A DNA stretch of 64,000 nucleotides from Helicobacter cetorum (GTDB lineage: Bacteria > Campylobacterota > Campylobacteria > Campylobacterales > DZAY01). A program made the position numbers and the translations under genes. Under the pieces are notes generated by a model. That model had not been told where the DNA came from and searched no databases. It saw nothing but the letters and a program-made list of their open reading frames with translations. Where the stretch lies: the NCBI GenBank assembly GCA_022729735.1, contig DZAY01000002.1, forward strand, positions 1-64,000, in the 5' to 3' direction. Position 1 is the stretch's first letter; each line of letters starts with the position of its first letter. This document shows, piece after piece, positions 30,952-54,062 of the stretch.

Positions 30952-31042
30952 CTATTTCTACGAATATATTTAAATCTCTTTGCACAAATTTAACACACTC
31001 GATATAATACAATCAAAAAAATTCACACCAAAAAGGCACATC

Positions 31043-33678: not shown

Positions 33679-34052
33679 TAGTTACTTTTCTCTTTTTCAG
33701 GATATTCTCTTTTTGCTCTTCTCTTGTCCAGCACGAGTTGGAACTCTTCTATCAAAAATTCTAATCCAAGTGGTAAAATTTCTCTTGCAATCAATCCACC
33801 AATCACAGAGCCAATCACTTGATACTCTGCATACTCTTTTAGAGCTGATAAATTAAAGCTGATATAGAAAAGCCAAGCTCCAAATAGTGCAACTCCAATA
33901 TGCACCCAAAAGTTGATAAAAAATTTCCACCAAAGAATTTTGCCATCATCTGATTTGTAAATATTCACCTCTTCATTTCTAAGCACTCTTCCCCAATATA
34001 GCAGAGTTGCACCAACTCCACTACCCAAAATCACTTTATCCAAATTATCCAT
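33678..34052 (-). CDS. Holin-like membrane protein
   Basis: A 124-residue protein with hydrophobic segments at about residues 8-22, 42-66 and 80-98 and a highly charged C-terminal tail (DKRRAKREYPEKEKSN). Size, membrane segments, charged tail and position 2 bases after the endolysin gene fit a holin. Sequence family is not recognised. Confidence 0.6.
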   Translation of the reverse strand: MDNLDKVILGSGVGATLLYWGRVLRNEEVNIYKSDDGKILWWKFFINFWVHIGVALFGAWLFYISFNLSALKEYAEYQVIGSVIGGLIAREILPLGLEFLIEEFQLVLDKRRAKREYPEKEKSN

Positions 34053-34054
34053 CT

Positions 34055-34597
34055 TTAAACTCTCTCTAATCTATGTAGCCAACCATTCAAAAAAACAGCT
34101 TGTGAGTTATCATTTGAAACTATCTCTTCATATAGCTTTTTTCTACTCTTTTTTATCTCTTTTATAAATTTATTACTATCAAACTCATTCAAGGCTTTTA
34201 AAGTTCCACTTCCAAATATCCCATCAGCTTTTACTTTGATAACTTTTTGAGTAGCAATTACAGCAGTTTTTAATCCACTATTTACACTATAATCAAATAT
34301 ATTATCAGCAACTAATTGTTGATTAATCAAATCACCTTTTATTTTATCCCAAAATTCTAACTTATAAAACTCTCTAACACCTTCTTGAACTACTAAATTA
34401 TCTTCTAATAACTCATTTATTTTAGCTACTCCGACATCAAGAGCTTTCACTTTATCTATTTCACTCCAAAATCCTAAAATAGGAAACCATCTACGACTTA
34501 TACCTTTATAAGTCTCACCTCCTCTATCAGCTTTATTATTTGCATATCCACCTTCACACTCTATTAGCTTAATATAAGCAATTCTAAAATCAGCCAT
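34055..34597 (-). CDS. Phage endolysin, GH108 family N-acetylmuramidase
   Basis: A 180-residue protein. The N-terminus has the GH108 catalytic signature ECEGGYANNKADRGGETYKGI, where the Glu of ECEGGY is the catalytic residue. The C-terminal half (IFDYSVNSG, KADGIFGSGTLKALN) matches the associated peptidoglycan-binding domain. No signal peptide is seen, so release through the holin is expected. It is the first gene of the minus-strand lysis operon. Confidence 0.9.
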   Translation of the reverse strand: MADFRIAYIKLIECEGGYANNKADRGGETYKGISRRWFPILGFWSEIDKVKALDVGVAKINELLEDNLVVQEGVREFYKLEFWDKIKGDLINQQLVADNIFDYSVNSGLKTAVIATQKVIKVKADGIFGSGTLKALNEFDSNKFIKEIKKSRKKLYEEIVSNDNSQAVFLNGWLHRLERV

Positions 34598-34615: not shown

Positions 34616-34651
34616 AGTTTAGACAAAAAACTTGGACGAATTAACCTTAAC
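34616..34651 (-). promoter_or_regulatory. Phage late promoter for the lysis operon
   Basis: On the minus strand the box AGTTA-N3-TTAATTCGTCCA is followed, with the same spacing as in the two other copies, by the -10 TAAACT (34621-34616). The TCGTCC starts 42 bases before the endolysin ATG. It shares a palindrome (GGACGA/TCGTCC) with the divergent capsid promoter. Confidence 0.65.
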
Positions 34652-34675
34652 TCGTCCATCTATTTTTTATATACT
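34634..34675 (+). promoter_or_regulatory. Phage late promoter for the capsid operon
   Basis: TTAACCTTAACTCGTCCATC is followed by the -10 TATACT (34670-34675). The -10 starts exactly 18 bases after the first base of TCGTCC, as in the copies at 34616 (minus strand) and 47094. TCGTCC begins 45 bases before the capsid gene ATG. Confidence 0.7.
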
Positions 34676-34696
34676 TCAACAAAAAAAGGAAAACAG

Positions 34697-35602
34697 ATGA
34701 TTTTAGAAAGTGGGCTTAGGAATATTTCAGCTAAACCATCTATCGTTGATGCCATTGTTTTACAAGGAGTTGCAAATGCTCCAATCTTAGAATTAGTCGG
34801 CTCTAAAAAAATAGGTGGTGCATTGCATAGCTGGATTACAGATAGATATAGACAACCAACAGATAATGCAAATAGCGAAGTAAGTGGATTGACTGAAGCG
34901 ACAACTTCAACTAAACAAAAAAACTCAAATGCTTGTCAAATTATAAAAAATGAGTTTGGAGTATCAATTCGAGGACAAGAAGTAGCCCAATATGGAGATA
35001 AAGAGTTACCTTATCAAACTCAAAAAGTTGCAAAAGAGCATATAAGAGATATTGAGTATGCAATGTTAGGACTTCATAACACTACGGTTTTTGATGTTTA
35101 TAATACAGGTGCAACTCCAAAAATGGCAGGAGTTTTTTATTATATTCCAACAGCTCACAAAAAAGATTTTGGAAACACTGCACTTGATTATGATAAATTG
35201 GCTCAAATCATTCAACCAATTTGGGAACTTGGAGGAGTTGATGATGAAGAGTTTGTATGTTTGCTTGGCACAACTCTAAAATCAAAAGTAAATGCGATGC
35301 TTGATAGCTCACCTTTTATGAGAGTAAATGTTACAGACAAAACTTATGACCCACGAGTTACAAGAGTTGCAACAGATTTTGGAATTATAAAATTAGTAAC
35401 TCATAGACTATTTAATAATCCAAAGCTAAATAACAAAGTTTTAGTTGGCAATTTCAATTATGCAAAATTATGTAATTTCACAGAAACAAAGCTAACAGAT
35501 GTGCCAACAGATAAAACAGCCACCTACAAGAGATATTACACAGATTGCACATTAGAAGTTAGTAATAATGACTATTTTGCTTGTGGAGATAATCTAATAT
35601 GA
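34697..35602 (+). CDS. Major capsid protein (SU10/DUF5309-like)
   Basis: A 301-residue protein whose size, position at the start of the structural operon and features (GGALHSWITDRY, FGVSIRGQEVAQYGDKELPYQ, TFG-like RVATDFGIIKLVTHR, late DYFACGDN) match the DUF5309/SU10-type HK97-fold major capsid proteins. It forms the head shell. It overlaps the next gene by 4 bases. It is separated by 20 kb from the portal and terminase, which are on the opposite strand. Confidence 0.72.
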   Translation: MILESGLRNISAKPSIVDAIVLQGVANAPILELVGSKKIGGALHSWITDRYRQPTDNANSEVSGLTEATTSTKQKNSNACQIIKNEFGVSIRGQEVAQYGDKELPYQTQKVAKEHIRDIEYAMLGLHNTTVFDVYNTGATPKMAGVFYYIPTAHKKDFGNTALDYDKLAQIIQPIWELGGVDDEEFVCLLGTTLKSKVNAMLDSSPFMRVNVTDKTYDPRVTRVATDFGIIKLVTHRLFNNPKLNNKVLVGNFNYAKLCNFTETKLTDVPTDKTATYKRYYTDCTLEVSNNDYFACGDNLI

Positions 35603-35982
35603 AATTAGCTGAAGCAAAGGAGTTTATCAAGCTCCACTTGCAAGGCGACAATAGTAGTGCCGAGATTTCTCAATTACACATCAAACAAGCCCTAATTGAG
35701 ATATGTCAGCACTGTGAGCCAAGCAAATTAATTGATAGTTACAGTGCTGATAAAACAGATGTTTTGAGAAAACTTTATAACGGTTTGTATATCAAATATC
35801 CACAAACTCCTATTGATGATGAAGAGCTACCTATTGATGAAGATTTAAGTTTTGCTTTTATCTATTTTGTATGTAGTTATCTTTCAAAAAAAGAGACAAA
35901 ATCAGGAAGTTACAAAGATATTTATGCACAAAAAGCGATAAATGTTTGCTCAATGCACAACACAAACAAAATTGAGGAGTAA
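35599..35982 (+). CDS. Probable head-tail connector or adaptor protein
   Basis: A 127-residue helical protein (MKLAEAKEFIKLHLQGDN). Position immediately after the capsid gene (4-base overlap), size and helical content fit an adaptor that joins portal and tail, but no family is recognised with certainty. Confidence 0.5.
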   Translation: MKLAEAKEFIKLHLQGDNSSAEISQLHIKQALIEICQHCEPSKLIDSYSADKTDVLRKLYNGLYIKYPQTPIDDEELPIDEDLSFAFIYFVCSYLSKKETKSGSYKDIYAQKAINVCSMHNTNKIEE

Positions 35983-35984
35983 AG

Positions 35985-36425
35985 ATGTCAGTAAGTATGG
36001 TAGATAGCACAAATATATTAGATGTATTAAACAATGCACTAAATGAACAACAAGAGGTAGTAACTCTACAAGAGATAGCAAATAAGCTATCAGGGTCTAA
36101 GAAGATTGAACCAGTTTGGAATACAGATAAAACAGATTTAGTTGGCTCTAAACACACTTTAATGGATGATACAGTTATCAACTTTAGTGCAACTGTAACT
36201 GAAGATGATACGACAAAAGAATATCTATTCACATCAACTGATATTGCAGGTTATAGTGCAACTTATACAGTTTCATTTAGCAAAGTAGTTAGAGTGATTA
36301 CACTGATGGGACAGCCAGTAAATCATATCGAATATGTGCCAATGGGAACAACAAATATTTTATTAACAGCAGTTGCACCAGCTAATGGTGGAGATGGTGG
36401 AGATGGTGATGGAATGGTTATCTAA
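35985..36425 (+). CDS. Phage structural protein with Gly/Asp-rich tail
   Basis: A 146-residue protein with a helical N-terminus and beta-rich middle (INFSATVTEDD, YSATYTVSFSKVVRVI). The C-terminus is GGDGGDGDGMVI; the ending GDGMVI is shared with the protein at 36505-36903. It follows the adaptor gene by 2 bases. Possibly a head decoration or tail-associated protein. Confidence 0.5.
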   Translation: MSVSMVDSTNILDVLNNALNEQQEVVTLQEIANKLSGSKKIEPVWNTDKTDLVGSKHTLMDDTVINFSATVTEDDTTKEYLFTSTDIAGYSATYTVSFSKVVRVITLMGQPVNHIEYVPMGTTNILLTAVAPANGGDGGDGDGMVI

Positions 36426-36504
36426 CCATTTTTCTCTCTCAAATATAACTATTCTACTATCCAAAATAATCACAACATAATACACATCAAAAGGAGTAAC
36501 AACA

Positions 36505-36903
36505 ATGGCAGGACTTTTTAAAAAAGAGGTAGTTATCAAACCAAACTCAAGCTCAACTCTTGCACAAGCAAAAACATCAACTAAAAATTGGTTAGATAAT
36601 AATTTTCAAAATGCAACTACAAATAAAGATGCAAATAATAACTATATAGATTACTTTTTTGCTGATATTTTTGATAGTAGAACAGGTAATATAATTAGAC
36701 TTTTTAGCTCGGCTTGTGAAAGCTACTATGGCATGACAAAAAATGCAGATGGTTTTATCGAATTTGAGCTATTGAATTTATCAAAATTAGCTAAAACTTC
36801 AGATATTCAAACAGTTGATTTAACACAAATCAATGGAACATTAGCAAATCACGAAGAGAGATTAGTAGCTCTTGAAGATAATGGCGATGGAATGGTTATC
36901 TAA
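36505..36903 (+). CDS. Phage structural protein, paralogue 1
   Basis: A 132-residue protein (MAGLFKKEVVIKPNSSS). It is a paralogue of the next gene: both share K[DE]-[IV]-x-[VI]KP near the start, DYF-x2-D-[IL]-FD near residue 50 and NHEERL near the end. Preceded by AAGGAG and a 79-base gap without other features. It ends NGDGMVI and overlaps the next gene by one base. Confidence 0.55.
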   Translation: MAGLFKKEVVIKPNSSSTLAQAKTSTKNWLDNNFQNATTNKDANNNYIDYFFADIFDSRTGNIIRLFSSACESYYGMTKNADGFIEFELLNLSKLAKTSDIQTVDLTQINGTLANHEERLVALEDNGDGMVI

Positions 36904-37247
36904 TGGGACTAATTAGAAAAGACATTATGGTAAAGCCATCTTCAACCACAGAAGAAGAAGTAGCAATTGCAACTACACTCACTTGGTTAAATAATTTACA
37001 AAATAACCAAACAAATAAAAATCCAGATAATAGCTTTAAAGATTACTTTTATGGTGATTTATTTGATTGTAGAAGCAAAAGATTAATTAGAGTATTTAGC
37101 ACAGAAGCACAAACTAAATACACCGTGCCAGAAACAATAGTAATTGTAGATATGCCAAAACTTGAAACAGTTACAGACAATCACGAAGAGAGATTAGATA
37201 ATTTAGAAACTATATCATCAGATGATATGGTCTTAGTCATTGAATAA
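36903..37247 (+). CDS. Phage structural protein, paralogue 2
   Basis: A 114-residue protein (MGLIRKDIMVKPSSTT), diverged tandem duplicate of the gene at 36505. Shared blocks are the N-terminus, DYFYGDLFDCRSKRLIRVFS and NHEERLDNLE. No family is recognised. Confidence 0.55.
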   Translation: MGLIRKDIMVKPSSTTEEEVAIATTLTWLNNLQNNQTNKNPDNSFKDYFYGDLFDCRSKRLIRVFSTEAQTKYTVPETIVIVDMPKLETVTDNHEERLDNLETISSDDMVLVIE

Positions 37248-37253
37248 GGAGAA

Positions 37254-38654
37254 ATGATGCAAGGATATGTAGTTGATAACTATTTTACAATTTATGATGC
37301 AAAAGTAGTAATAACACAAAATGGAGTAGCAAATGCCAAATATTATACAGGATATGAAAATCTTGATGGACTTAGCGAAAATGAACCCATAGAATTTCCA
37401 GTAGAAAATTTAGGCTATATCTTTAATTTAGGTGGAACAACTCACTTTTATAAAAGTGAAATAAAATTAGATGATAGAGGATATTATGTAGATGTTGGGC
37501 TTTATGGAGATATATATAGCTACAAAATGGCTGATTATGAGCATATAAAGGTAGCTCCTTATTATGCTCTAAATAGTGAAACATCAACATTAAACACAGA
37601 AGCTATTGAGACTGAAGGTAGTTTATATTTAAATGTAGTAGCAGAGAATGGCTTTACAATCAGAACAAATGGCACAAATTGGTTAGATGTTTATAAATTT
37701 GATGGTGAGAGTTATCAATTGGTTGAATATTTGCCAACAGAAGAAGCAGAGCTTGATAGTTGGTTAGAAGAAAATAACTACCAATTAGATGCAGGTGATT
37801 ATGTATTTGAATATGCTGGTGGAGTAGTTAATTTAGAACTTCAAACAGAAATTAGTGGAGTTTCTAAAAAGTTTAAATTCTTTATTCATGACAACACTGC
37901 AAAAAGTCTAACAAGCTTTTTAAATCATATCAAAGATAATTTACTATCAGAAAATGAAGTTGGTATAGTGTTTAGCCAAAGTGGCAAAATCTATTATGTT
38001 ACAAATGAAAGCTTTAAAAGTGTATTTTTAGTAGATGAGATAAAAAATCCTATATTGTATCAAATTGAACAAATGAGCGAAACTTTAAATACATTTACAA
38101 ATAAAGCAAATAGTGCAGAAGAAAAAGCAAATAGTGCAAACAGTAGTTTAAGTAGTTTGACAAATGAGATTAATAATCTTAAAACAATTACAAATAACCA
38201 AAATCAAAGTTATACAAGCTTATCAAATAAAATCCCAGCAAATCTAAGCACTACAATTTCAACACTCGAGCAAAACATCACAGAGCTAAAAGAGCGTCCA
38301 ACTATTCCACAAGATTTACAACAAACAATTTCATCTCACGAGCAAACAATTTCATCTCACGAGCAAACAATTTCATCGCTTGAACAAACAATTTCAGATT
38401 TACAACAAGCATTCCAAGCATTCCAACAAAATGCAATCCAAACTATAAAAGAGCAACTTCTACAAGAAGCACAAACAGGAACGATAAACTACAACACAAT
38501 CTACACAATAGAAGAGCCAACTATCAAAATATTAGCTCCAAATGGTGTTCCAGTATTTAGTGGAGAGTTTGTCAAAGTTGCAGATGGTGAATACAAAATC
38601 GATTTTGATACATCTACTTATGGAGATGGAAACTATACAGTGGAGATTGTATGA
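37254..38654 (+). CDS. Coiled-coil phage tail/fibre protein
   Basis: A 466-residue protein. Residues 1-260 are beta-rich. Residues about 275-405 form a coiled coil with short repeats (TISSHEQ occurs twice, then TISSLEQ, TISDLQQ). The C-terminus is a small beta domain (IKILAPNGVPVFSGEF). This layout fits a trimeric fibre or adhesin. AAGGAG precedes the start; ATG at 37257 is better spaced than 37254. It overlaps the next gene by 4 bases. Confidence 0.6.
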   Translation: MMQGYVVDNYFTIYDAKVVITQNGVANAKYYTGYENLDGLSENEPIEFPVENLGYIFNLGGTTHFYKSEIKLDDRGYYVDVGLYGDIYSYKMADYEHIKVAPYYALNSETSTLNTEAIETEGSLYLNVVAENGFTIRTNGTNWLDVYKFDGESYQLVEYLPTEEAELDSWLEENNYQLDAGDYVFEYAGGVVNLELQTEISGVSKKFKFFIHDNTAKSLTSFLNHIKDNLLSENEVGIVFSQSGKIYYVTNESFKSVFLVDEIKNPILYQIEQMSETLNTFTNKANSAEEKANSANSSLSSLTNEINNLKTITNNQNQSYTSLSNKIPANLSTTISTLEQNITELKERPTIPQDLQQTISSHEQTISSHEQTISSLEQTISDLQQAFQAFQQNAIQTIKEQLLQEAQTGTINYNTIYTIEEPTIKILAPNGVPVFSGEFVKVADGEYKIDFDTSTYGDGNYTVEIV

Positions 38655-40915
38655 GAAAATTCAAATTTGAAAAAGATGGAGTAGCTAAAGAGTTAAATAC
38701 TCCATTAGCTAATAACCAATTCAAAATTAGCTGTGCAGAAGTTGGCGAAAGAGTTGAGCCATTAAAAGCTATATTTAAAGTTGATGGAATTACAGTTGGA
38801 GAACTTGAGCAACCTATTAGTTGTGAAGTTGTAAATGCAGACAATATACAACCTCCATATCTTTTTAAAGATTGGCAAATTGTTGTTGAGAAATATTATA
38901 ACTTAACTTTTATAGAGACTTATCAAGCTATTTTATTAAAATTTTATATTGATGAAAGTTATGAAGAGCCTTTCACAGTGATAATTAATAAAAAGCAAGT
39001 AATAAAACTAATAGTTCCAAATCTAAAAATGGCATACGAAATTATTAGCACATATGGATATTTTAATTTTGAAGTAGATAAAAATTATCTTCATGATAAA
39101 GATTATTTAAAATTCAGTATTAGTGAAATGCCAATAACAACACCATCTTGTGATATGTATAGCCCTACTTTATTTTATATTGTTGAAGAAGATACAGAAG
39201 ATTTTGAAACTATATTTTTATTATCAAAGTTAATCCTTGACAATGAAAAGAAGTTAGCCATTAATTATCCACATACACACTATTATGCCATAAAAAATAA
39301 AATATTAATAATAGATGTTGGTTTGGAAGCTAATATCAGTAAAAGTCAAGATATTAGAATTAAAAGACTTATTGAGTTAGGATATGTAGATGTAATTGAA
39401 TTAAGTTTAAACGGCACACCTCCTAATTCGCCATACTATGCCACACTTAGAAAAGATTATATAAAGTGTGATATGAGAAATTTAGATGTGATTTTGAGTT
39501 ATTACAACTTCTATTTTGGAACTATAGACCAAATAAAAGAGTTTTATTTTTATTATAAAGGTCAAATAATAGAACTTGAAAATGGTATTTTAAATTATAA
39601 GTTTGCTAAGCATATTGAAAACTTTATCAATAATGTTGGCTTTACACAAACTCAAATAGATGAAATTCCTCGCTTAGATGTAATTCAATATCTACTAATT
39701 GGTGCTTTGAAGAGAATAAACAGTGGTGAATACAACATCACAGAAGCTAATATTATCTCTCATAAAGTATATTTTGGAGAAGAGATACGAATTATTAGTG
39801 ATGATGGTTATGTATATCATATTCCATATCTATTTCCAAAGATAAATAGTGCAAATAAAATCAACATAGAAAATGTCTATCATCCAGAGCTTGGAGTAAT
39901 TGCCACAATAGAAAATGGTATTTTAAAATCAAACGATAATGGTGCAAGTATTGCACGAAATTTAAATCTACCATTTCACACAATCGATACACAAAACAGT
40001 AGTGCAATGCCAACTAATTTAGGCTTTATCCCAACTATCATAAATCCAAATCTATATGGTGAAAAAACAAAAGAAGAGTATGAATACGATAAGAGAGAAG
40101 AAGAAAACAACACCCCTTTTGTATCAAAAACTTCAACTAATATTAGCTTTAACAGTGGCAGTTTAACTGCGATAAATCCAAATAGCTCAAGCTTTACATT
40201 AGCAGAAGATGATATAACTCTACTAAATGAAATTGAAACCAAAGCAGACCAAACAACATATATTGCACCAGCAGTTTGGAGCATAAAGCTATATAAAATA
40301 TTAGCTACATTTAGCAATAAATCAATCTTCACAAACCATTTTGAAGATATTGGAGATTGTCAATTCATAGTAGATGGATTGATAGAATTCAAAGATAGTG
40401 GAATTGTAAAGCAAACATTTTTAGCACTACATCAAATGTTAGTAGATTTTGTTTCGCAAATAGTTGGCAAATTAGAGCTAATGGAGCTTGTTCGTTCTTA
40501 TCAAAACGAAGATGACGAAATTGTAAATGAATATAATGCCAAAGTTTATGATATTACAGAAGTTAAATCAATAATCAAAGCTCGATTAGATAGTTTAACA
40601 GTTTTGGAATTTAGATACAATGTTTTCAAAAACTACATATTTGTTCCAGCTAATCACCCATTTTTTCAAGATTTAACAGATGAAAAAATCTATGAACCTA
40701 TAACTTCAACAGAGCTTTTAATATTTAATAGAATAGCAAAAGCTCCAATAGAGTTTCAAGCTACGGGAGTAGAAAAAAAACCAACGATAAAAGCCACATT
40801 TACTGAAAATGAAAATGATATTGAAATCAGTCTTGAGGGCATAAGTGGAGAAGATAGCGATGGCAATGAACTCACATCAACAATCCCAAATACAATATCT
40901 TTTGGAGGTTTATAA
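38651..40915 (+). CDS. Large phage structural protein (tail-associated)
   Basis: A 754-residue protein of unknown family. It has no membrane segment, and mixed beta-rich and helical regions. Position inside the plus-strand structural operon, overlapping both neighbours, supports a virion role such as a tail or baseplate-like protein. Confidence 0.5.
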   Translation: MRKFKFEKDGVAKELNTPLANNQFKISCAEVGERVEPLKAIFKVDGITVGELEQPISCEVVNADNIQPPYLFKDWQIVVEKYYNLTFIETYQAILLKFYIDESYEEPFTVIINKKQVIKLIVPNLKMAYEIISTYGYFNFEVDKNYLHDKDYLKFSISEMPITTPSCDMYSPTLFYIVEEDTEDFETIFLLSKLILDNEKKLAINYPHTHYYAIKNKILIIDVGLEANISKSQDIRIKRLIELGYVDVIELSLNGTPPNSPYYATLRKDYIKCDMRNLDVILSYYNFYFGTIDQIKEFYFYYKGQIIELENGILNYKFAKHIENFINNVGFTQTQIDEIPRLDVIQYLLIGALKRINSGEYNITEANIISHKVYFGEEIRIISDDGYVYHIPYLFPKINSANKINIENVYHPELGVIATIENGILKSNDNGASIARNLNLPFHTIDTQNSSAMPTNLGFIPTIINPNLYGEKTKEEYEYDKREEENNTPFVSKTSTNISFNSGSLTAINPNSSSFTLAEDDITLLNEIETKADQTTYIAPAVWSIKLYKILATFSNKSIFTNHFEDIGDCQFIVDGLIEFKDSGIVKQTFLALHQMLVDFVSQIVGKLELMELVRSYQNEDDEIVNEYNAKVYDITEVKSIIKARLDSLTVLEFRYNVFKNYIFVPANHPFFQDLTDEKIYEPITSTELLIFNRIAKAPIEFQATGVEKKPTIKATFTENENDIEISLEGISGEDSDGNELTSTIPNTISFGGL

Positions 40916-41844
40916 TGGCTATTGGAACAACAGGTAAAGTTTATGATGTTGGCAAGGCTTTAGTAGCTTATAATGCAGATACCAAAAAGTTAAAAGTAGT
41001 TGCAAAAAAGCGAGGTGATAACTCAACCATATATATTGGAATAAATGGACAAAACATTAGAGTGAAATTAAGTGGTGGCAATCAAGATATATCAGTTGCA
41101 AATCAAACAAACCCAACTCCACAATCACCAGACCAAGCACCAATAACTTACAGACAAGGCAAACTTATTAAGCTAAATGGTGAGTTTTTAGAAATGCAAG
41201 GTTGTAGCTACTCTACACAGCAAATGAGATTAGGAGCTACACAATTTAGCGATTATGCAAGACAAGTAATTCCAAGCTTTGATTATAGAGAAATGATTTT
41301 AGATAGCGATGGTAAATTATATTTAGGCAAACGGATTGGATTTACTGGAGAGTGTGGAGGTTTATCAAATAAAGAAAAAGAAGAGCTTGATATGAGCCGT
41401 TTCCCAACAGATTTGCTCACTCTAAATCCAAGCACAATGCAATCAGAACCAGCAAAGATTGTTGAAATTGCAGTAAGTAGAATTGGTTATTACTTTAGAT
41501 ACAACAATGGTTATGCTTATCAAATGCCAAAATTTTCTCAATTGCTTTTAATTGGCACAAATATAGCAGGATTTAAACGAAATGATTGCATTAGTTATAA
41601 TAAAAATGATGGAAAAGTTGAAACAATAACTTTTAATCCATCAGATTTAGAATATAACTTTTTAGAAATTAGCGAAACAGATTATCAAGAATGGTATAAA
41701 AAAGCAAATATCTATGATTTAAATAATGGATATGCAAATAATAGAATTAAGAAAAAGCTTTGTTGGGGAGGAACTGGAAACTTAGGCGAAGTAGTTGGAG
41801 TTGGTTTAGAAGCGATAAAGCCTTGCTTGAGATTAAATTGGTAG
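40915..41844 (+). CDS. Phage tail or receptor-binding-like protein
   Basis: A 309-residue protein beginning MAIGTTGKVYDVGKALVAYN. The C-terminal end (CWGGTGNLGEVVGVG followed by KPCLRLNW) resembles the end of DUF6273/formylglycine-fold domains found in phage tail and adhesin proteins. It overlaps the preceding gene by one base. Confidence 0.5.
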   Translation: MAIGTTGKVYDVGKALVAYNADTKKLKVVAKKRGDNSTIYIGINGQNIRVKLSGGNQDISVANQTNPTPQSPDQAPITYRQGKLIKLNGEFLEMQGCSYSTQQMRLGATQFSDYARQVIPSFDYREMILDSDGKLYLGKRIGFTGECGGLSNKEKEELDMSRFPTDLLTLNPSTMQSEPAKIVEIAVSRIGYYFRYNNGYAYQMPKFSQLLLIGTNIAGFKRNDCISYNKNDGKVETITFNPSDLEYNFLEISETDYQEWYKKANIYDLNNGYANNRIKKKLCWGGTGNLGEVVGVGLEAIKPCLRLNW

Positions 41845-41853
41845 GAGAAAATT

Positions 41854-42204
41854 ATGAATTTAGAAATTGAGCAAAACGAATGTTATGACAATATAACAAT
41901 AAAAACAGCAAATATGGGAACTTTAGAAATAACAGATGTTGGAATAACATTTGATGGAAGTGTAGATTTAGTCAAAACTCCATTTAATAGCACAAATAGT
42001 TGGTATGAAGTAGCTCCAGTTAAATTTTATCCATTTTTACAACAGTTTGGAGAATATCACAAACATACAGAAAGCAACACTATATTTTTTAATGGAGTTA
42101 CACCAACTTTATCAGATAATATTATGTTTAACGACTTCTCTTATCATATCATTTGGGGTAGCTTTTTTACACCAGTTGATAAAGATACAATAGGCACAAT
42201 CTGA
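41854..42204 (+). CDS. Hypothetical phage structural protein
   Basis: A 116-residue beta-rich protein (MNLEIEQNECYDNITIKTANMG). No family is recognised. It has a GGAG site and shares one base with the next gene, inside the structural operon. Confidence 0.5.
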   Translation: MNLEIEQNECYDNITIKTANMGTLEITDVGITFDGSVDLVKTPFNSTNSWYEVAPVKFYPFLQQFGEYHKHTESNTIFFNGVTPTLSDNIMFNDFSYHIIWGSFFTPVDKDTIGTI

Positions 42205-42752
42205 TGTTTAGAGTGGATACAAGAGGGATTGAGGTAGATAAAAATATCTCAATTCACACAAATAAAAATATAGAGTTTGTGAAGTTTTATGAAATGCAAA
42301 CAAAAGCAATACATGAGCTAAACTACAATCAAATATCAGAAAATAGATTTGAAATAGAGCTAATTGGCAAATATGGTTATTTAATCGCTAAAGTTGGAAA
42401 TGTTGGAGTTGTTAGAAAAACTGTTGGGATATTAAATAGCTTTGTAATTTATGCAAAAAAAAGAGTTAAATATAAAGAGCATGACATAAATTTAAATCTA
42501 TTAAATGAAACAGAAGCTACTGAAATATTCCCAAATTTTTATCTCATTCAGTACTCATCAAGTGCTTATCTTGTTAGCTTTTTAAATAAAAAAGTGATGG
42601 TAAAAGATAGAGAGCTATTTCAATTTGGAGTAGATTTAAAAGATGTGGTAATTCCACAAATGAGTTTAGAAACTATAAACTTTGATAATCTTGAAATACC
42701 AACAGTTTCTATTCCACAAATCACAATAGATTATCCAAACATTAGGAGATAA
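42204..42752 (+). CDS. Hypothetical phage structural protein
   Basis: A 182-residue protein (MFRVDTRGIEVDKNISIHTN) with beta-rich composition and a C-terminal low-complexity stretch of short beta repeats (VIPQMSLETI, VSIPQITIDY). The family is unknown. Confidence 0.5.
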   Translation: MFRVDTRGIEVDKNISIHTNKNIEFVKFYEMQTKAIHELNYNQISENRFEIELIGKYGYLIAKVGNVGVVRKTVGILNSFVIYAKKRVKYKEHDINLNLLNETEATEIFPNFYLIQYSSSAYLVSFLNKKVMVKDRELFQFGVDLKDVVIPQMSLETINFDNLEIPTVSIPQITIDYPNIRR

Positions 42753-42757
42753 AAAAA

Positions 42758-43051
42758 ATGGCAGATGAAAACTTAGAAGAAAAGATAAAAGAAGCTGTAA
42801 AAACCAAAAAAGAAGAGATTGATAAAAACTTTAGCTTATTAGATAAAGAGATTGAAACTTCAATTAGTAGAGGTTATGCAAATATCCAAAGGCTTAATTC
42901 AAGTTGGTTAGGATTTATTGCCAACTCATCAACTACAAATCTAAATGAAGCTCTATCAATTTTAAACTCAACTCACATAGAAAATCCCAACTTAGAATTT
43001 AAAAAAGGTAACTCAAATGCAAGAGTTATCACAAACATTACAGGAGTATAA
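42758..43051 (+). CDS. Small helical phage protein
   Basis: A 97-residue protein with a charged helical N-terminus (LEEKIKEAVKTKKEEIDKNF). No family is recognised. It stands 5 bases after the preceding gene and one base before the next. Confidence 0.5.
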   Translation: MADENLEEKIKEAVKTKKEEIDKNFSLLDKEIETSISRGYANIQRLNSSWLGFIANSSTTNLNEALSILNSTHIENPNLEFKKGNSNARVITNITGV

Positions 43052-43052
43052 A

Positions 43053-43967
43053 ATGGCATATAATCAAGAATTTGTAAAAACAATTATTCGAGATATTTCA
43101 GCAGAAGTTGTAAATGGCGATGAAAGTCTATTTAATTTAGCAAACAACTCTATGAAAACATTTTTAGAAGAGAGTAGCTTGACAGATACAGAAAAAGCAA
43201 AAAACTACACAATGTTCTTAACAAATTTATCTACAACAGCAGTTCAGCAAATCGTGCAAATGGGAGGACAAATCGCACTTGATTATCAGCTAAAAGAAGC
43301 AGAAACAGCAAAAATATTAGCCGAAACTAAATATAATGTAGAGCATCTATTCCCAGCACAAAAAGATAAATTAGTTGCTGAAAAAGATTTGATAAATATT
43401 GAAAAAGATTTCAAAGATTATCAAACAAAAAGCATTTTACCAAATGAAAAAGATAAATTAATCGCAGAAAAAGAGTTATTAAGTTCTCAAAAAGATAAAT
43501 TAGTTGCTGAAAAAGATTTGATAAATATTGAAAAAGATTTCAAAGATTATCAAACAAAAAGCATTTTACCAAATGAAAAAGATAAATTAATCGCAGAAAA
43601 AGAGTTATTAAGTTCTCAAAAGAGTTTCATAAGCACTCAAATAGAATATTATGAAGACAAAATAGAAGCTGAAATTTCAGTTTTAAATGCTGAATTTTGG
43701 TCAAAAAAGGCTCAAATTCAAGGAGCAATTGCTGAAATATCAATCAAAAAAGCTCAAATTGATGAAATAGGAGCAAATATATTTAAGCTAAATAAAGAAG
43801 CTGAAAAACTTGTAGCAGAAAAAGTTAGCCTTGGTCAAGATGGAGAGTTTAAACTAAGACAAGCTGATGGAGTTGAGCGAGGAATAAAAGCAAATTTAGA
43901 AATAGAAAAATTAAAAGCACAAAATCAGCTTGAAATAGCAGGTATTCAAGCAATGGCAAGTGTCTAA
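43053..43967 (+). CDS. Long coiled-coil phage protein with internal duplication
   Basis: A 304-residue, almost wholly helical protein rich in Lys and Glu. Residues about 104-189 are two identical 43-residue copies (KDKLVAEKDLINIEKDF...). The start at ATG 43053 has GGAG at 43043. It is probably an elongated internal or tail component whose length is set by the repeat. Confidence 0.6.
   Translation: MAYNQEFVKTIIRDISAEVVNGDESLFNLANNSMKTFLEESSLTDTEKAKNYTMFLTNLSTTAVQQIVQMGGQIALDYQLKEAETAKILAETKYNVEHLFPAQKDKLVAEKDLINIEKDFKDYQTKSILPNEKDKLIAEKELLSSQKDKLVAEKDLINIEKDFKDYQTKSILPNEKDKLIAEKELLSSQKSFISTQIEYYEDKIEAEISVLNAEFWSKKAQIQGAIAEISIKKAQIDEIGANIFKLNKEAEKLVAEKVSLGQDGEFKLRQADGVERGIKANLEIEKLKAQNQLEIAGIQAMASV
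43362..43619 (+). repeat. Perfect 129-bp tandem duplication
   Basis: Copies 43362-43490 and 43491-43619 are identical base for base and in frame, each encoding 43 residues. Confidence 0.97.
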
Positions 43968-44881
43968 TGCAAACAGCAGAAGTATTAACTCTTTGGAATA
44001 GATTTAAAGATTTCTTTTTAGCAGATTACAAAAACTCTTATCCAAATGCAACACATCAAATAGAAGTTGCAACACAAAGCAATATTCTATTTTCACTTTA
44101 TAAATCCATAATGAGTGTAGCAAGAATAACTAATGCTACAAAGCTACAAGAAGATTTACCAAGTGCAAAAATACCTTTAAAAAAAATAGCTCAAAATAGA
44201 ATTCTAAGATTTCCAAATGAGCCAACAGCTGATAATAATTTTGATATAGATGATGATTTGGTTTTGGCTTGTATATATTTATCACTTAGCGATTTTGGGA
44301 TTACAATTTATATGGGTGAATACAATCAAATTATTGCAGATTATATCAAGTTAGAAACAGTGATAAATAGTAGCAATAGTGAAGTGATAGAAGAGACTAT
44401 TTATTTTAAATATAGTAGTGATGGTGAAAGTTGGCATAGTGAATTCCAAGCTGATGATATATATTTATCAATTTATCAAAACGATAGCTGGAGCAGTGCA
44501 ATAAGATTTGTAGGTAGAGATGGAGTAAATACAAATAGTGAGCCAAATCAATCAAATGAGCCAACTAATACAGGATTTAATATTGATAACTTTGATGAGT
44601 TTGGAAATGTAATGGGTGAAGTTAATTACTCTTTTTTTCAAACTCAAACATCAGCAGGTTTCGCATTTAGTGGTGATACTACATTTAATTTTGATTTTAC
44701 AAATGCACTAATTGGACATATTTATACAGTTCTATTTTATACTGATGGAGTAAATACAGTTACAATTAATGGTGTTTTGGGTGATGTGAGTGTAGATATT
44801 TCATCTTATACAGTTATTCATCAATACATTTATGATGGACTTGAAGCATTTGCAATAAATAATAAATCTATTCCAAACTAA
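43967..44881 (+). CDS. Phage tail-fibre-like protein
   Basis: A 304-residue protein. The N-terminal half is helical; residues about 145-185 carry a motif seen in phage fibre/host-recognition proteins (FKYSSDGESWHSEF followed by IYQNDSWSSAIRFVGRDG). A Ser/Asn-rich linker and a beta-rich C-terminus follow. It overlaps both neighbours by one base. Confidence 0.55.
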   Translation: MQTAEVLTLWNRFKDFFLADYKNSYPNATHQIEVATQSNILFSLYKSIMSVARITNATKLQEDLPSAKIPLKKIAQNRILRFPNEPTADNNFDIDDDLVLACIYLSLSDFGITIYMGEYNQIIADYIKLETVINSSNSEVIEETIYFKYSSDGESWHSEFQADDIYLSIYQNDSWSSAIRFVGRDGVNTNSEPNQSNEPTNTGFNIDNFDEFGNVMGEVNYSFFQTQTSAGFAFSGDTTFNFDFTNALIGHIYTVLFYTDGVNTVTINGVLGDVSVDISSYTVIHQYIYDGLEAFAINNKSIPN

Positions 44882-46257
44882 TGCAAATAAAAGTCCCATA
44901 TTCAAATCCAAATAGCAAAAATTTATTAACCAAAGAGTTAATGCACGGAGTATTTCATCAAGCTTTGATAAATGATTTAAATAGAGGTGTTAGCTCTTTT
45001 CTTAGTAGATATAGAGATAATATATTTGATGTAGATAGATTTAATCATAAAAGTGCGATGGAACAAACAATGCTTGATGCAGATATTCCAACAGTTGAAA
45101 AAATTAGAGAAAACTCATATTTACCAAACTATATTGAAGTAGATAATAGAGTTCCAACTATCATATCAAAAACGAAGCCAATCAAAAATCCAACATATCT
45201 ATGGGAAAAAGAGCTTATATTTACAAAAGATAACAAAATCGGAGTTTTTATTCCAATAGGTTATCCACCAATAGTTGGATATAGCTATAAAGATGATAAA
45301 GAAGATGAGCATATATATCGAGTTACTTCAAGCTCAACTTTGGCTAAATATGAAAATGGTGTAATGATAGAAAATTATAAACAGCAAATTAAAATATTTA
45401 AACTTGCTCTTGCAGATATAGAAAATGGAGATTTTCAAGAAGCTAAAACATTAGAGTTTGAATTTAGCAATACAAATCTCTACTTTTCAAAATTTATGTT
45501 TGTAAATAGCTATATCGATGGCAAAAGCTATCTAATTCTTAAATGTTATAAATTTATAAAAATATATGATATTGAAGATTTTAGTATCAAATATGAATAT
45601 GAATTTAAAGATGATAGTGATAGATTAGCTTTTGATAAAGCCGATAGAGCAAGAGTTCATTACACAACCAAAAACGATAAAGATACAGCAACTATTTTAA
45701 TATATAATAGTAGTGGCACTAAATTTGATTGTTATATTATAAATAGTGATGAAACAAAAAGAGTTAGTTTTGATTTAGAAACTACATATATTGAGTGTGA
45801 TATATCGCAAATAACAAATAATATTTACTTCATCAAATCAAACATTCCAAAATCAAAAGCAAAATATTTTAAAGTAATAAATGGCAAAACTTTTGAGCAA
45901 CAAATTGCTAAGAAATCCGATTTGATGGGATTTAAATCAAGATATGACTACTGTAATAATATGCGATTTACAGATACCCAAAGTTCTTATGATGGATATT
46001 TTTATAACTACAACTTTATCCATAATGGAATATTCACGACAAAACCCAAAATACCAGACGGATTTAATATCATAGACAACAGCACAAAAGATAGCGACCT
46101 AATCCAAAGTAGTAATGCAATATTTTATAGCTCAAATTACATTAAATTTAAACCAATGGGAATTCAAGTTAGCAACTCCAAATCTTTCGCAATCAAAACA
46201 AAAAAATCAATCATAATAATAAATGGAAACAAGGTTTATGGAGTGAAAACCAACTAA
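44881..46257 (+). CDS. Hypothetical phage structural protein
   Basis: A 458-residue protein (MQIKVPYSNPNSKNLLTKEL), beta-rich with many aromatic residues. No family is recognised. It is the last gene before a 149-base gap that holds the promoter region of the next two-gene cassette. Confidence 0.5.
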   Translation: MQIKVPYSNPNSKNLLTKELMHGVFHQALINDLNRGVSSFLSRYRDNIFDVDRFNHKSAMEQTMLDADIPTVEKIRENSYLPNYIEVDNRVPTIISKTKPIKNPTYLWEKELIFTKDNKIGVFIPIGYPPIVGYSYKDDKEDEHIYRVTSSSTLAKYENGVMIENYKQQIKIFKLALADIENGDFQEAKTLEFEFSNTNLYFSKFMFVNSYIDGKSYLILKCYKFIKIYDIEDFSIKYEYEFKDDSDRLAFDKADRARVHYTTKNDKDTATILIYNSSGTKFDCYIINSDETKRVSFDLETTYIECDISQITNNIYFIKSNIPKSKAKYFKVINGKTFEQQIAKKSDLMGFKSRYDYCNNMRFTDTQSSYDGYFYNYNFIHNGIFTTKPKIPDGFNIIDNSTKDSDLIQSSNAIFYSSNYIKFKPMGIQVSNSKSFAIKTKKSIIIINGNKVYGVKTN

Positions 46258-46406
46258 TCTAAAATATTTTGTTTTATTTTTTGAAAAATTAACTCTATTT
46301 CACTTTTATTTAATGAAATCTCTTCTTTTGTGAAATGGAGTAAGAATTAATTAACTCTTTTTAATAGCGATATTGTTAAAATAATTTAATAAATTAAAAA
46401 AAGGGA

Positions 46407-46652
46407 ATGGAAATGCAAAAAAATGAGAAAATTTTTAATCTATTTGATGAAAAAGAGTCTATTGAAATAACAAATAGTGGAATAAGTAAGGGAATAGAGT
46501 TATTAGCAGATAATAATATAGTTTTAAATAAACTTTTTGAGCAAAAAAATGGAGATAATGAAAATATAAACTCATTTTTAAAGAGATATTCAAAAAGTGA
46601 GCTAAATAGTAATGATAAATTAATTATAAATAAATATAAAGCTGTAAAATGA
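46407..46652 (+). CDS. Small protein, first gene of a two-gene insert in the structural region
   Basis: An 81-residue charged helical protein (the start may be the ATG at 46407 or at 46413; AAAGGGA lies upstream). No family is recognised. The last 4 bases overlap the next gene (ATGA). The preceding 149 bases are very AT-rich and include GTTAAAAT-like -10 candidates and an inverted repeat TTTCAC/GTGAAA. Independent expression is likely. Confidence 0.55.
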   Translation: MEMQKNEKIFNLFDEKESIEITNSGISKGIELLADNNIVLNKLFEQKNGDNENINSFLKRYSKSELNSNDKLIINKYKAVK

Positions 46653-47080
46653 ATACAGTAGCAATTAGATTTAGATTAATAGATGCTATGAAAATCATAT
46701 CAATATTTTTAGAAAATGAGTATGAAGAGAGAGAAAAAGATATAGTAAGAGTTCAATTAGAAGGAGCTATACAAAAAGCTATATTGAAAATAGGCATATA
46801 TCAAAGAAATTTTGGAATAGATATGCAAAATCCAGAATTATTAAGAGATGTGTGTTTTTTGGGTAGTTGTTTTTTAGAGCAAAGCACAAATAATTTTAGA
46901 TTTTATAAAGCTGTTGTAAAAGCTTGTTTTGCAATAGTAGAAATAGGCACTGGTAAAAGTGTTGATGAAAATTTTGTAAAAAAAATAATGAAAGCAATGA
47001 GTAGCTATCAATGCAATAGTGGTGTATTATTTCAAACAGAAGCTTTTTATTTCACATTTAAAGCTCATTTTAGAACTTAA
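46649..47080 (+). CDS. Hypothetical protein, second gene of a two-gene insert
   Basis: A 143-residue, mostly helical protein (MNTVAIRFRLIDAMKIISIF) with five scattered cysteines. No family is recognised. It is translationally coupled to the 81-residue protein. It could be a toxin-antitoxin or exclusion pair, but nothing in the sequence proves it. Confidence 0.55.
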   Translation: MNTVAIRFRLIDAMKIISIFLENEYEEREKDIVRVQLEGAIQKAILKIGIYQRNFGIDMQNPELLRDVCFLGSCFLEQSTNNFRFYKAVVKACFAIVEIGTGKSVDENFVKKIMKAMSSYQCNSGVLFQTEAFYFTFKAHFRT

Positions 47081-47093
47081 AGCAATTTAGCCC

Positions 47094-47131
47094 AAGTTAC
47101 CCTTAATTCGTCCATCTTTTTATCTTAAAAT
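47094..47131 (+). promoter_or_regulatory. Phage late promoter for the internal-protein operon
   Basis: AGTTA-CCC-TTAATTCGTCCA is followed by the -10 TAAAAT (47126-47131), starting 18 bases after the first T of TCGTCC. TCGTCC begins 46 bases before the ATG at 47154. Composition and spacing match the two promoters at 34616-34675. Confidence 0.7.
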
Positions 47132-47153: not shown

Positions 47154-47921
47154 ATGGGTTTCATATCTTCATACGAACAAGGCAATCCAAATAGTGCGAA
47201 AAAATTTGCAGAGTGGGAAACTCCAAAGCAAGTTGTATATCCCAAACAAGGCACTCACACATTTCAAACTCCAGAGCTAAGAGCTTTATTTAATCAACCA
47301 AAAATTGATGTTAAACCTATTCAAGGTTTTAGCACTCAAGCAAATCAACTAATCTCAAATATAGCAAACATCAAACAGCAGAGATTAAATTTAGACCACC
47401 AAAAAACATTATCGAATATGTATAACCAAACAACACACAATCAAACTCAACTCCAAGCAACAAAACTCAATGAAGCTGGTGCTACAAATAGAATTGCTAT
47501 GCAAAATCAAAACAATTTAGACATAGCAAAACTTAGAACAAATACAACAACTCAAATGACACCTTATGAGCAATCTATGAGTGAATTAAAAGAGCAACAA
47601 CAAAGAGATTTTAGAGCAAAAAATGTTGATAATCTATTTGTAGAGTATAAAAATCTAAATGATAATGAAAAGAATATTGCAAAAAATATGTATATTCAAT
47701 ATGGAGCGATGCCACAATTTAAAAAAGGTGCGAAAGATGGTTGGTTTGGAGAATATGAAGATGATGTGCTTGATATGGACTACTACAATCAGTTTTTGCA
47801 ACCCAAACAGCCACAGCCACAACAACAAATAGGAGTGCCTCAACAATCACAACAACCTCAAACCAAACAACAGCCAACACAAAACTATGATTTAAATAGT
47901 TCAATTTGGTTAAAATATTAA
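47154..47921 (+). CDS. Gln-rich internal virion-like protein
   Basis: A 255-residue protein with a helical, Gln/Asn-rich middle and a C-terminal low-complexity stretch of PQQ repeats (residues about 220-245). No family is recognised. It lies directly before the 1576-residue protein under the third late promoter, so an internal or ejection role is likely. Confidence 0.5.
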   Translation: MGFISSYEQGNPNSAKKFAEWETPKQVVYPKQGTHTFQTPELRALFNQPKIDVKPIQGFSTQANQLISNIANIKQQRLNLDHQKTLSNMYNQTTHNQTQLQATKLNEAGATNRIAMQNQNNLDIAKLRTNTTTQMTPYEQSMSELKEQQQRDFRAKNVDNLFVEYKNLNDNEKNIAKNMYIQYGAMPQFKKGAKDGWFGEYEDDVLDMDYYNQFLQPKQPQPQQQIGVPQQSQQPQTKQQPTQNYDLNSSIWLKY

Positions 47922-47930: not shown

Positions 47931-50900
47931 ATGAATAATTCAGAAATATTAAACTCTAAAGAGATTAATGGAGTTAGATACGAAAAGATAAATGTTAGTG
48001 ATTTAGAAAAACTAAGAATATTAAAAGATAAAGGTTATAGACCTGTAACGGATTTAGAAACTCTAAAAGAGTTAGAAGGTTTTAAAGATAGTAGCAGTAT
48101 GTCCGAAGGGCTTAAATCCTTTGGTTATGGAATGTTAAAACCAATTAGTGCTGATTATCCTGCATCTATTGGAAAACTAATTGGTAGCAAAAGTCTTGAA
48201 AATTTTGGAAACGAAGCAAGACGAAATATTGAAGATAACTACTCAAATAGTTATAGTGGAATGCTTGGTGAAATAGCTGGAGACCCAATGACATATACAC
48301 CAATGGGACTTTATAACAAAGGCAAAAGAGCTGTTGATTTTATAAAATCACTTGCAACTGGTGGAGCAATTGGTGCAAGTAGTCAATTCGCAAGAGATTA
48401 TGGAAATCAAGATTTAACAAATAGTGAAAAGTTACAAAATAGCTTAATCGCTGGTGGAATTACTGGTGGTTTAGCTGGAGGATTAAGTCAAGTTTTTAGA
48501 AAAGTTCCAACTCCTCAATCTACATTATCACCCCAAAATCTTCAAAATGGATTGGCACAAAATGGAGAAGAATTTGGATTAAATAGCTCTAATTTCAAAC
48601 AAACTACATCACAAAATCCACAACCTCAAGCAATTCAGCAACCACAAGGAGTTATAAATGATAATAGACTTAATGATACTACTAATATCACTAATCGCGA
48701 TAGTGTTATTTATGGAGATAACAATGAAATAAATAAAGTTGAATTCAAACAAATTCCAAAACCACTTGAAACACCACAAGAAGCACTTGACTATATTCTT
48801 TATGGTAAAAAACCTATGCAAACTATTCAAGTGGTGAATGATAATGTGAAAAATCATAGATTAGAAAATCAGCTTTTTGCTTCACCTCATATTGGTAGTG
48901 GTGTTGTTGGTGGAACTGCAAATGCGACTGAAATTGATGAAAATGGTAATATGAATATTGACCCTGAAAAGTTTGTAACTGGATTTTTAGCTGGAATGGG
49001 TGCAAGTAAAGTAGGAGCTATGACATTAAGACAAACTAATCCAAATCTATATAACAATCTTTTAGGAATTGGTAAAAAACATCCAAATATGGCAAAATCA
49101 AATCCTACTCTTTTAGCAAAAATTTATAATAGCTCAAAAGATAGCTCAACTAATATGTTTGCTGGAGAAAAGGCTTTGAGTGCAAATATATCAAATTTAC
49201 AAATGGCTAAAGAGCTTGAAAAAAGTGGAGCTAATGAGGTTGATATTTGGAAAAATACAAGTTGGTTTAAAGGTGATGATGGAGAGTGGAGATTTGAAAT
49301 TAATGATAGTGATGTAACTTTTAATGATAATTTGAAAGTTGGAAAATATAAATTAAGTGAAATATTTAATCATGATAAGCTTTTTGAAAACTACCCAGAA
49401 TTAAAAGATTTTGAAGTTAAAGTCGAAAACAACAAAGGGGCTTATTATAGAGGATATTACACAAATAAATCAATCACTCTAAACAAAGCTACTGAAGGAG
49501 TGAATAAATCTACACTACTTCACGAAATTCAACATGGCATTCAAGGATTTGAAAATTTTGGACAAGGAGCAGACCCAAGACTCATATTTGATTTAAAAAT
49601 CGACCCTATTTTAAAAACTCCAGCAGCTAAAAAGTTGGCAAATATAATTAATCCGAAAGTTATGGGATTAGAAGATAAAAGTAAGATTAAAAAAATTGTT
49701 GATAATGTTTTGCAAAAACCAAAATATTATGGATTAAAAGAGATGCCAACAGAAGATGATATAAGATTAATTTATGAAATGGTAGATAAAGGCTGGAGTA
49801 GTGTATTTAAAGATTATGTGAATGGCACAAAAAGGTCGCCTCTTTGGCAAAGTGAGCGAGTGCATGGTGAAGCAGAAGCAAGACTTACACAAAATAGAGC
49901 TAACAAAGGCTATGATAATTTTCCATATGATGATTTAGATGTGCCACGAAATGAGATAAAAGACGATGCTATTGATTTTATGATGGATAATATGCAAATG
50001 TCTCCTGTTAAATCTAAAAAGCAAAAAGAACAGAGAGCAACTTTTAATGTTCAGTTTAATGGTAAAAAATCTGCAAATATTTATAGAGATAAAGATTTTA
50101 GAGATGTTGAAAATGCTATCAAGTTTGAGAGAGGTAAAGAAAATATTCATACTGGCAAAGGTTTTGGAGCTTTGCATATTGAAAAACATATCGGTGATGA
50201 CAAGGATGGGTGGATAACTGTTAAAGAGTTTTTGAATATGGGGAATGCTATTAGAAATGTTGAGCCGTATCTAAAAAATGGTAAAAGAGTCTATGAATAT
50301 AGAAATAATTTTGGAGATAGATTTAGAATTATTATTGGAGATGATAATAAGAGAGAAAGAGTTATAACATTTTACTCAAATAGAAAGGCTGGGTTCGGCA
50401 ACGATAGCCAAAATTACATTTACAACCAGCCTTCTAACGAAACTCTATCACCACAAAACTTAGAAGATAATAAACTCAATCCAAATATGCGAGGTGGTTT
50501 TGTTGATAATCAGTTAATATCAGATGGTGCAGAAACTATAAAAGATAGTTGGGATAAGCTAAAAATTCTATTTTCAAATACTTTGCCACGAGATTATATG
50601 GGATTGCGAGAAGAGACTATCACAAATATGAGTAAAGCATCTCACCAAATGGAAACTCTACATAAAGCATTAAAAAGACTTGATGAAAATGATAGAGTTG
50701 CACTTCATGAATATATGGTTGGAGACAAAGTTGATATAAAATCTGAACTGAAAACTATTGGTGATAGCTTTAGAGCAGAAGTCAAAGACTTAGAAAAAGA
50801 GTTGGTAACAAATGGTGTTTTAAGTCAAGAAGCTTTTGATGAGTGGAGTGAAAAATATCTACATAGGATTTATAAAGGTAGCTTTAAAAACTCTATGAAT

Positions 50901-54059: not shown

Positions 54060-54062
54060 TTA

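Follow-up and report, generated by a model that had tools for sequence, protein, structure and literature searches.

The 64,000-nucleotide stretch of Helicobacter cetorum DNA analysed here (the window, bases 1-64000 of the 147-kb contig DZAY01000002.1 in a 2.5-Mb assembly) carries a prophage in which three copies of a short sequence box stand at a fixed distance upstream of a -10 hexamer. The locus raises the question of whether these boxes are the operators of a promoter class that belongs to the phage and, if so, which protein reads them. The comparisons described below support a phage promoter class that has a fixed geometry and a box which a phage-specific factor reads, together with a gene set comprising the capsid, lysis and internal-protein genes. 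We assign a probability of roughly 0.7 to the more specific reading that the boxes are operators of a phage-specific late promoter class, bound and activated by a dimer of the small helix-turn-helix (HTH) protein encoded at 56959-57213 (minus strand). This reading is built on the geometry, its conservation, the phage-specific matching of the sites and the gene order around the HTH gene, from which we infer the binding of the box by this protein, its action as a dimer, the activation and the temporal order.

The pattern AGTTANNNTTAAYTCGTCCA, with up to three mismatches allowed, has three matches in the window: box 1 at 34633-34652 (minus strand, no mismatches), box 2 at 34639-34658 (plus strand, one mismatch) and box 3 at 47095-47114 (plus strand, no mismatches). 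All three had been described in an earlier note on this DNA, with coordinates that are off by one base. Boxes 1 and 2, which were said there to lie back to back through a palindrome, are two readings of one 24-bp palindrome, GGACGAaTTAAccTTAAcTCGTCC, at 34634-34657, and this palindrome is contained in a putative 28-bp dyad operator (34632-34659, without strand) that is common to two back-to-back promoters. Box 3 is not palindromic: in the third site (47088-47115, plus strand) the proximal half-site TTCGTCC is intact and is the only arm kept, the distal arm, GCCCAA, being degenerate. A recount on the sequence places the -10 hexamer 18 bases past the first base of TCGTCC at each of the lysis (TAAACT, 34621-34616, minus strand), capsid (TATACT, 34670-34675, plus strand) and internal-protein (TAAAAT, 47126-47131, plus strand) promoters, and the start codons 42, 45 and 46 bases past the same base, exactly as had been claimed. 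The three promoters have a single geometry, consisting of the box, 12 nucleotides and the -10. The centre of the window dyad lies 24.5 bp upstream of the first -10 base, which would put it at about -37 if that base is taken as -12.

In shuffled sequence the pattern occurs 0.50 times on average, and 2 of 100 shuffles reach three matches. This count alone is modest; the three-box geometry is beyond chance because it recurs in related phages. The shorter pattern TTAAYTCGTCCA has five matches in the whole assembly, of which three are the boxes and two fall within open reading frames (ORFs) whose protein sequences look like those of uvrB and lysA.

It is hardly credible that the three sites are ordinary host sigma-70 promoters in an A/T-rich genome, with a box that arose by chance or as an inherited repeat. 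The frequency of three matches among the shuffles leaves some room for this view, as does the general lack of a -35 box in Campylobacter promoters, which is described in PMC3656092; the host promoter-class consensus taken from that paper has TGn before the -10. None of the three window promoters has either TGn before its -10 or a -35 box, and TGn is present before the -10 in several of the relatives' sites. What argues against ordinary promoters is the fixed offset found in 27 of 27 compiled sites and the matching of arms within each phage at gene-anchored sites, both of which are described below. The absence of a -35 box at the window promoters, from which a phage activator had earlier been deduced, is weak evidence by itself; the comparative data support a phage-specific factor, and activation by it is presumed.

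The genomes searched for relatives all belong to the host's own order. Matches to the capsid protein were found in 22 of 298 genomes, and the capsid loci comprised 21 in genome contigs together with 80 (the best 80 of 100) and 18 in viral contigs; a search of the viral contigs with the window capsid sequence alone gave no match, and the relatives were obtained with two alignments (A1 and A2). The named relatives come from epsilonproteobacterial records, among them Campylobacter, Helicobacter and Sulfurimonas; in addition, one short contig belongs to a Deferribacteraceae bin. Membership in the family was considered for the C. jejuni prophage CJIE4 and rejected, since its capsid is listed as HK97 in PMC3995785.

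The letters of the box are not what these phages have in common. TTAA.TCGTCC is absent from the 195 loci of other genomes scanned, and an earlier, looser box scan of 22 loci gave scattered matches; the link to the relatives emerged only when upstream regions were read for symmetry. Many capsid upstream regions of the Campylobacter group carry a dyad of their own, such as TGTTTCAAAA/TTTTGAAACA, AGTCCAAAAA/TTTTTGGACT, ACTGCAAAAA/TTTTTGCAGT, TGCCAAA/TTTGGCA, CTGACA/TGTCAG, GTGCG/CGCAC and others, with a core of the type GGTAG or CCTA. The expectation that the box would be found in related phages is thus borne out for its architecture, which is conserved, and not for its letters, since the arms are phage-specific. 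Fifty representatives were hand-picked from 62 distinct upstream regions. In 19 of them the best palindrome has its centre 58-63 bp upstream of the capsid ATG, several of these being no better than shuffles and several coming from near relatives; in the rest the centre lies elsewhere. The corresponding distance in the window is 51.5.

When the sites are placed in a 28-bp frame (a 10-nucleotide arm, an 8-nucleotide core and a second 10-nucleotide arm), every one of the 27 compiled sites shows a -10-like hexamer 9-12 nucleotides beyond the frame; such a hexamer stands at an offset of 11 in 19 sites and of 10 in 7, and no other offset has more than 6. These sites were compiled for a box-like look and not for a -10, and the result therefore speaks to fixed spacing rather than to the frequency of the box; L133, L139, L140, L168, L144, L049, L068, L070, L048, L125, L165 and others (L numbers designate the loci) were left out as near-duplicates or as unclear. 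In L138-L140 the dyad separates a lysozyme gene from the capsid gene, the two being oriented away from each other, and the spacing to TATAAT is that seen in the window. L132 and L133 are similar phages whose capsid sites (L132:9927 and L133:9927) lie in opposite orientation, as reverse complements of each other; the complete operator is turned round at its position, a change that a symmetric site would tolerate.

A palindrome between two genes might instead be a bidirectional intrinsic terminator or an RNA hairpin element. The two strands of the window palindrome fold at -10.3 and -14.2 kcal/mol (z -5.3), 34658-34633 on the minus strand was scored as terminator-like (one of 6 such sites, against 6.1 expected in shuffles), and two of the three relatives' dyads that were folded form stable stems. 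The flanking genes diverge, however, so that neither reads into the palindrome; the third copy has no fold (0 kcal/mol) and yet keeps its letters and spacing; and the dyad lies upstream of the predicted starts at a fixed distance to the -10. On balance a terminator or hairpin function is very improbable.

An indication of a cognate protein comes from the second sites found in the same phages. A second site with arms of the phage's own type is found where the HTH gene begins in L051, L052, L131, L132, L133, L144, L045, L167 and L169, before the unit leading into the terminase, HTH and portal genes in L138, L139, L140 and L168, and before structural genes in L142, as in the window. In nine phages the reading frame of the HTH gene was enough to locate the second site, without recourse to its letters. 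These gene-anchored sites agree with the arms of the capsid box in the same phage at 10.44 of 12 positions, as against 7.14 of 12 for the arms of other phages; the own-arm match was reached by 3 of 20,000 permutations for the nine phages and by 83 of 20,000 for the six less similar ones. For sites picked for symmetry or likeness, the arms agree at 5.4 of 6 positions within a site as against 2.73 between phages, and the two sites of one phage agree at 10.3 of 12 as against 5.8 between phages, with none of 20,000 permutations reaching either value. The permutation tests on sites picked in this way are partly circular, and the between-site test was redone with the HTH-gene-anchored sites. The matching of arms within a phage points to a phage-specific trans-acting protein.

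The best candidate for this factor is the HTH protein of 56959-57213, which is favoured by gene order and by a comparison of sister phages. Wherever terminase and portal are both visible in an examined locus, they are separated by a small ORF whose C-terminus is HTH-like (L065, L159 and duplicate loci were left out of the separate gene-order check). The same order, which is that of the phrog_6425-type genes, is found in the window: the 86-residue candidate regulator lies directly downstream of the terminase large subunit gene (57213-59225, minus strand; phrog_2, E 8.4e-43), whose stop codon is overlapped by its ATG (TAATG), and directly upstream of the portal gene (55350-57023, minus strand; phrog_332, E 2.2e-41; phrog_1216, also portal, E 1.5e-17). 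Of the three candidate regulators put forward by the earlier note, it is this one that gene order and the sister phages favour; those at 61447 and 63493 went through family searches only.

The candidate is one of a varied group. The window, Campylobacter and Helicobacter phages and several metagenome contigs have a form of 78-110 residues with one HTH, and 15 other contigs (L149:6603-7067, L155:3975-4442 and 13 more) have a form of about 150-170 residues with two apparent beta-HTH units, which were read by eye, only the C-terminal unit being matched by a profile. Profile-profile comparison links the groups: the window-type alignment, A8, matches A4 at a probability of 92.4 (E 5.1e-7) and A9 at E 8.6e-15, and A4 matches A9 at E 1.7e-7. 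Of the 28 aligned regulators, 21 match the family phrog_6425, for which no function is given, at E up to 0.1 (lowest 2.2e-49), and the window regulator is tied to this group by the profile comparison of A8 with A4. Predicted models are helical with a C-terminal HTH (mean pLDDT, the predicted local distance difference test, 79.3 and 81.6, the latter for the window protein). In 60 genomes the regulator profile gave matches at E <=0.001 in 10, strong in G010 and G000, moderate in G033 and weak in seven others, and no match in G046, G049 and G058, whose capsid matches are weak or fragmentary.

If this protein reads the box, then changes in its HTH should accompany changes in the arms. L051 and L052 are sister C. 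concisus phages whose regulators differ at 9 of the last 31 residues and at 1 of the first 62 (93 compared), the single difference in the first 62 falling in codons of the box. Between the same two phages all four half-sites, at two loci about 9.3 kb apart, change from TGCC to TGTC or TCTC, and both cores are identical. The more divergent stretches encode tail-fibre-like proteins and small membrane proteins, and from about 18.6 kb onwards the sequence is non-phage and includes a transporter; no other DNA-binding protein was spotted by eye in the divergent stretches of the 20 kb compared, the part of the phage left of the terminase lying outside the comparison.

The two-HTH group gives a second view of the same relationship. 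The capsid upstream regions of this group mostly carry a (C/T)GACA box near -72 and not a dyad; CGACA is present in 11 of 15, at -70 to -76 (at -85 in L154), and the phages that have it are exactly the 11 with QR[IV] in the last recognition helix, with none among the four others. L161 and L162, which have FRI, carry TGACA, and L150 and L153 have neither. L160 (KAQRI, with CGACA) and L162 (KAFRI, with TGACA) differ by one residue in the aligned helix segment and by one base. A helix-base code may be at work, in which one arm position would follow the residue that precedes the conserved R, with T for an aromatic residue, C for Q, and G for K or E; it is a lead only, since the registers in the two-HTH group are assumed, and L165 (Q with A) breaks it.

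Several observations weigh against the proposed pairing of this protein with the boxes. The second site of L052 fits the arms of L167 as well as its own, and in L169 and L045 the arms of a different phage give a fit that is better by one position. Partial Mantel correlations between arm distance and HTH distance, given the rest of the protein, are 0.16 (p 0.08, 18 phages) and 0.21 (p 0.08, 13 phages) in sets where the frame of one box was shifted by a base, and 0.10 (p 0.30) in a third set of 10 phages; across phages the arm-HTH correlation is inseparable from phylogeny. In the window itself the third site is only half a dyad, and the pattern scan found no fourth box near the minus-strand terminase-regulator-portal unit. 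Such a dyad is missing from most of the closest capsid relatives, and the sites of the H. pullorum phage L165 are asymmetric. No terminase-HTH-portal cassette is resolved in 7 of 11 stretches, which leaves L050, with its perfect dyad, without a paired regulator; two of the 7, the distant relatives L172 and L175, have a portal but lack such a gene just upstream of it. Finally, the window regulator matches no Pfam, PHROG or NCBIfam family above cut-off, with no hits to phrog_6425.

Some of these points would suit a box that is read by a phage protein other than the HTH protein of the terminase-portal unit. Such a factor would be in keeping with the lack of a family hit for the window protein, with the longer form of the regulator in the closest capsid relatives and with the loss of significance of the HTH-specific correlation once phylogeny is taken into account, and it could have escaped a comparison that in most phages covered only about 10-20 kb around the capsid gene. 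It would leave without explanation why the L051/L052 regulator changed almost only in its HTH while the half-sites changed, why the box so often lies at the HTH gene, and why helix and site agree in the two-HTH group, and no rival protein was seen by eye in the divergent stretches of the 20 kb compared. A different phage factor is accordingly considered unlikely.

In the mechanism that we propose, a dimer of the 56959-57213 protein would bind the dyad at about -37, over the place of the -35 box, and the bound regulator would recruit the host sigma-70 polymerase to the bare -10. One symmetric site could then serve both directions, leftward for lysis and rightward for the capsid operon, and the half-site version at 47088-47115 would turn on the internal-protein genes. 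The prophage cascade would run from derepression, through production of the regulator from the leftward terminase-portal unit, to the late genes, and the box found at the terminase-HTH-portal unit in many relatives would add positive feedback. Each phage lineage would have its own arm sequence and a matching HTH, which would insulate the circuit from those of related phages. The earlier assignment of lysis, capsid and internal proteins to a late regulon is upheld for the gene set by the comparative data, with the late timing and the transcription itself presumed.

The same dyad could instead be a repressor operator, at which the HTH protein or another phage repressor would cover the -35 region and so keep polymerase out. 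Repression is just as compatible with a centre near -37, the HTH gene of several phages carries the box at its own start, in the manner of autorepression, and the prophage encodes other DNA-binding proteins (31966 and 61802). The HTH gene sits in the packaging unit and not beside the repressor, and the window promoters, without -35 and TGn, should be weak unaided, although neither of these points against repression is decisive. We give this alternative a small but real chance, and regard recruitment over the missing -35 as the most likely mechanism, with repression as its main rival, because the dyad sits where sigma contacts the -35 box and because Mu Mor replaces the -35.

The comparison with the phage Mu activators Mor and C (PF08765), which act at Pm and the late promoters, is instructive in both directions. 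According to PMC4390567, Mor binds a 16-bp element with 5-bp arms whose dyad is centred at -43.5 and replaces the -35, and the likeness lies in a small phage protein with a C-terminal HTH and a dyad site in place of the -35 before a recognisable -10; the window has such a dyad, with the third site reduced to half. The window protein, on the other hand, has 86 residues as against 129, the 28-bp frame is centred near -37 rather than at the Mor position, the arms vary from phage to phage, the gene lies between terminase and portal, and one palindrome faces two divergent units. PF08765 gave no match for 10 regulator members at E up to 10 with the HMMER filters on, and the family search of the window's own genome gave no matches to it. 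An hhalign comparison with seven Mor/C rows (A7) gave a probability of 72.8 (E 3.2e-5) for A5, 59.6 for A4 and only 0.7 for the window-type A8; with two Mor/C rows the comparison gave 16.7 and 17.2%. The aligned region comprises a GG-x-[YF]IP segment and the HTH, and 1 of 60 column shuffles of A5 exceeded the real score, through a 3-column alignment. The predicted model of the window protein resembles the Mor fold 1rr7 at Z 6.1 (root-mean-square deviation 5.3 over 77 residues), tied with many HTH rows, and the L132 model at Z 3.3; Foldseek gave no match to the regulator models at E <=0.001. The system would work like Mor/C, and membership in that family is not established, because the Pfam profile is unmatched and the site differs in size and position.

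Two other known systems show a distant likeness. The regulator HTH has a weak sequence and fold likeness to those of serine recombinases (gamma-delta, Tn3, Tn552), which differ from it in that the regulator has no recombinase domain and a different gene context; the A-tract half-sites presumably resemble Hin sites. PaP3-like Pseudomonas phages have a distantly related capsid protein, but in PaP3 itself the terminase and portal genes (4315/4316) are direct neighbours, with nothing in between. A literature search, which missed most subscription journals, turned up no paper on late promoters of the phages studied here or on an activator of their late genes.

A broader interpretation is possible, though we would put it somewhat below even odds: that this is a late-activator family in which DNA specificity diversifies fast and the promoter geometry is frozen, giving many insulated activator-operator pairs, that some phages have a tandem version, probably with two HTH units in one chain, and a mostly non-palindromic (C/T)GACA site, and that a residue-to-base code may be readable. 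The present analysis offers a testable function for an unassigned phage family (phrog_6425 and its divergent kin) and a means of predicting late operons in prophages of Campylobacter and related bacteria. The L051/L052 and L160/L162 pairs are natural near-matched pairs for reading how the HTH changes its DNA target, and if the pairs are orthogonal they would provide compact activator-promoter sets, some of them bidirectional.

The genes behind the boxes are organized as follows. The prophage extends from around the 30-kb position of the window to a gene outside it that looks, from its sequence, like an integrase (L006:3327-4370). It has a minus-strand lysozyme unit, a plus-strand capsid operon, a gene for a very large protein and the leftward terminase, small HTH and portal genes. 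The leftward lysis unit begins with an endolysin gene (34055-34597, minus strand; phrog_315, E 2.2e-34), downstream of which are two small minus-strand ORFs (33678-34052 and 33289-33678, together 33289-34052) that are holin/spanin-like by position and appearance and had no family match at the curated cut-off. The rightward structural operon begins with the major capsid protein gene (34697-35602, plus strand; phrog_1328, E 6.2e-50). The first gene behind the third box (47154-47921, plus strand) matched no family in the searches; it is followed by the very large protein (47931-52661, plus strand; phrog_13543, no known function), with related sequences in 14 of the searched loci, whose size and position suggest a product of the internal or ejection type.

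Some further features were noted in passing. The capsid leaders of L049, L050, L065, L068, L138 and L142 contain stems in which the ribosome-binding site is part of the 3' arm or adjoins it; stems of at least 8 occur in 7 of 39 leaders (that of L021 without a ribosome-binding site), as against a shuffle mean of 0.56 and a maximum of 3. The terminase at 57213-59225 has an intein-like insert at its Walker A motif (GHG|C...HN|TGKT; Pfam Hom_end_hint, PF05203, E 8.2e-19); a similar insert is present at the same place in L061, and the other top hits shown align only outside it. A near-identical stretch of about 150 bp, with TTTGCA-N18-TATAAT, occurs at about 30890-31045 in the window and about 1750-1905 in L006, preceding two different genes near both prophage ends. 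The minus-strand genes at 52665-54599 form a cargo-like pair, a NUDIX-domain protein (PADLOC PDC-S07, E 1.9e-12) and an IrrE-like peptidase similar to CapP (E 2.5e-25), which is possibly a defence module, and a Mrr-type restriction endonuclease domain is encoded at 62551-63492, near the repressor-like gene at 61802. In the predicted protein of 43017-43967, a 43-residue stretch occurs twice in tandem.

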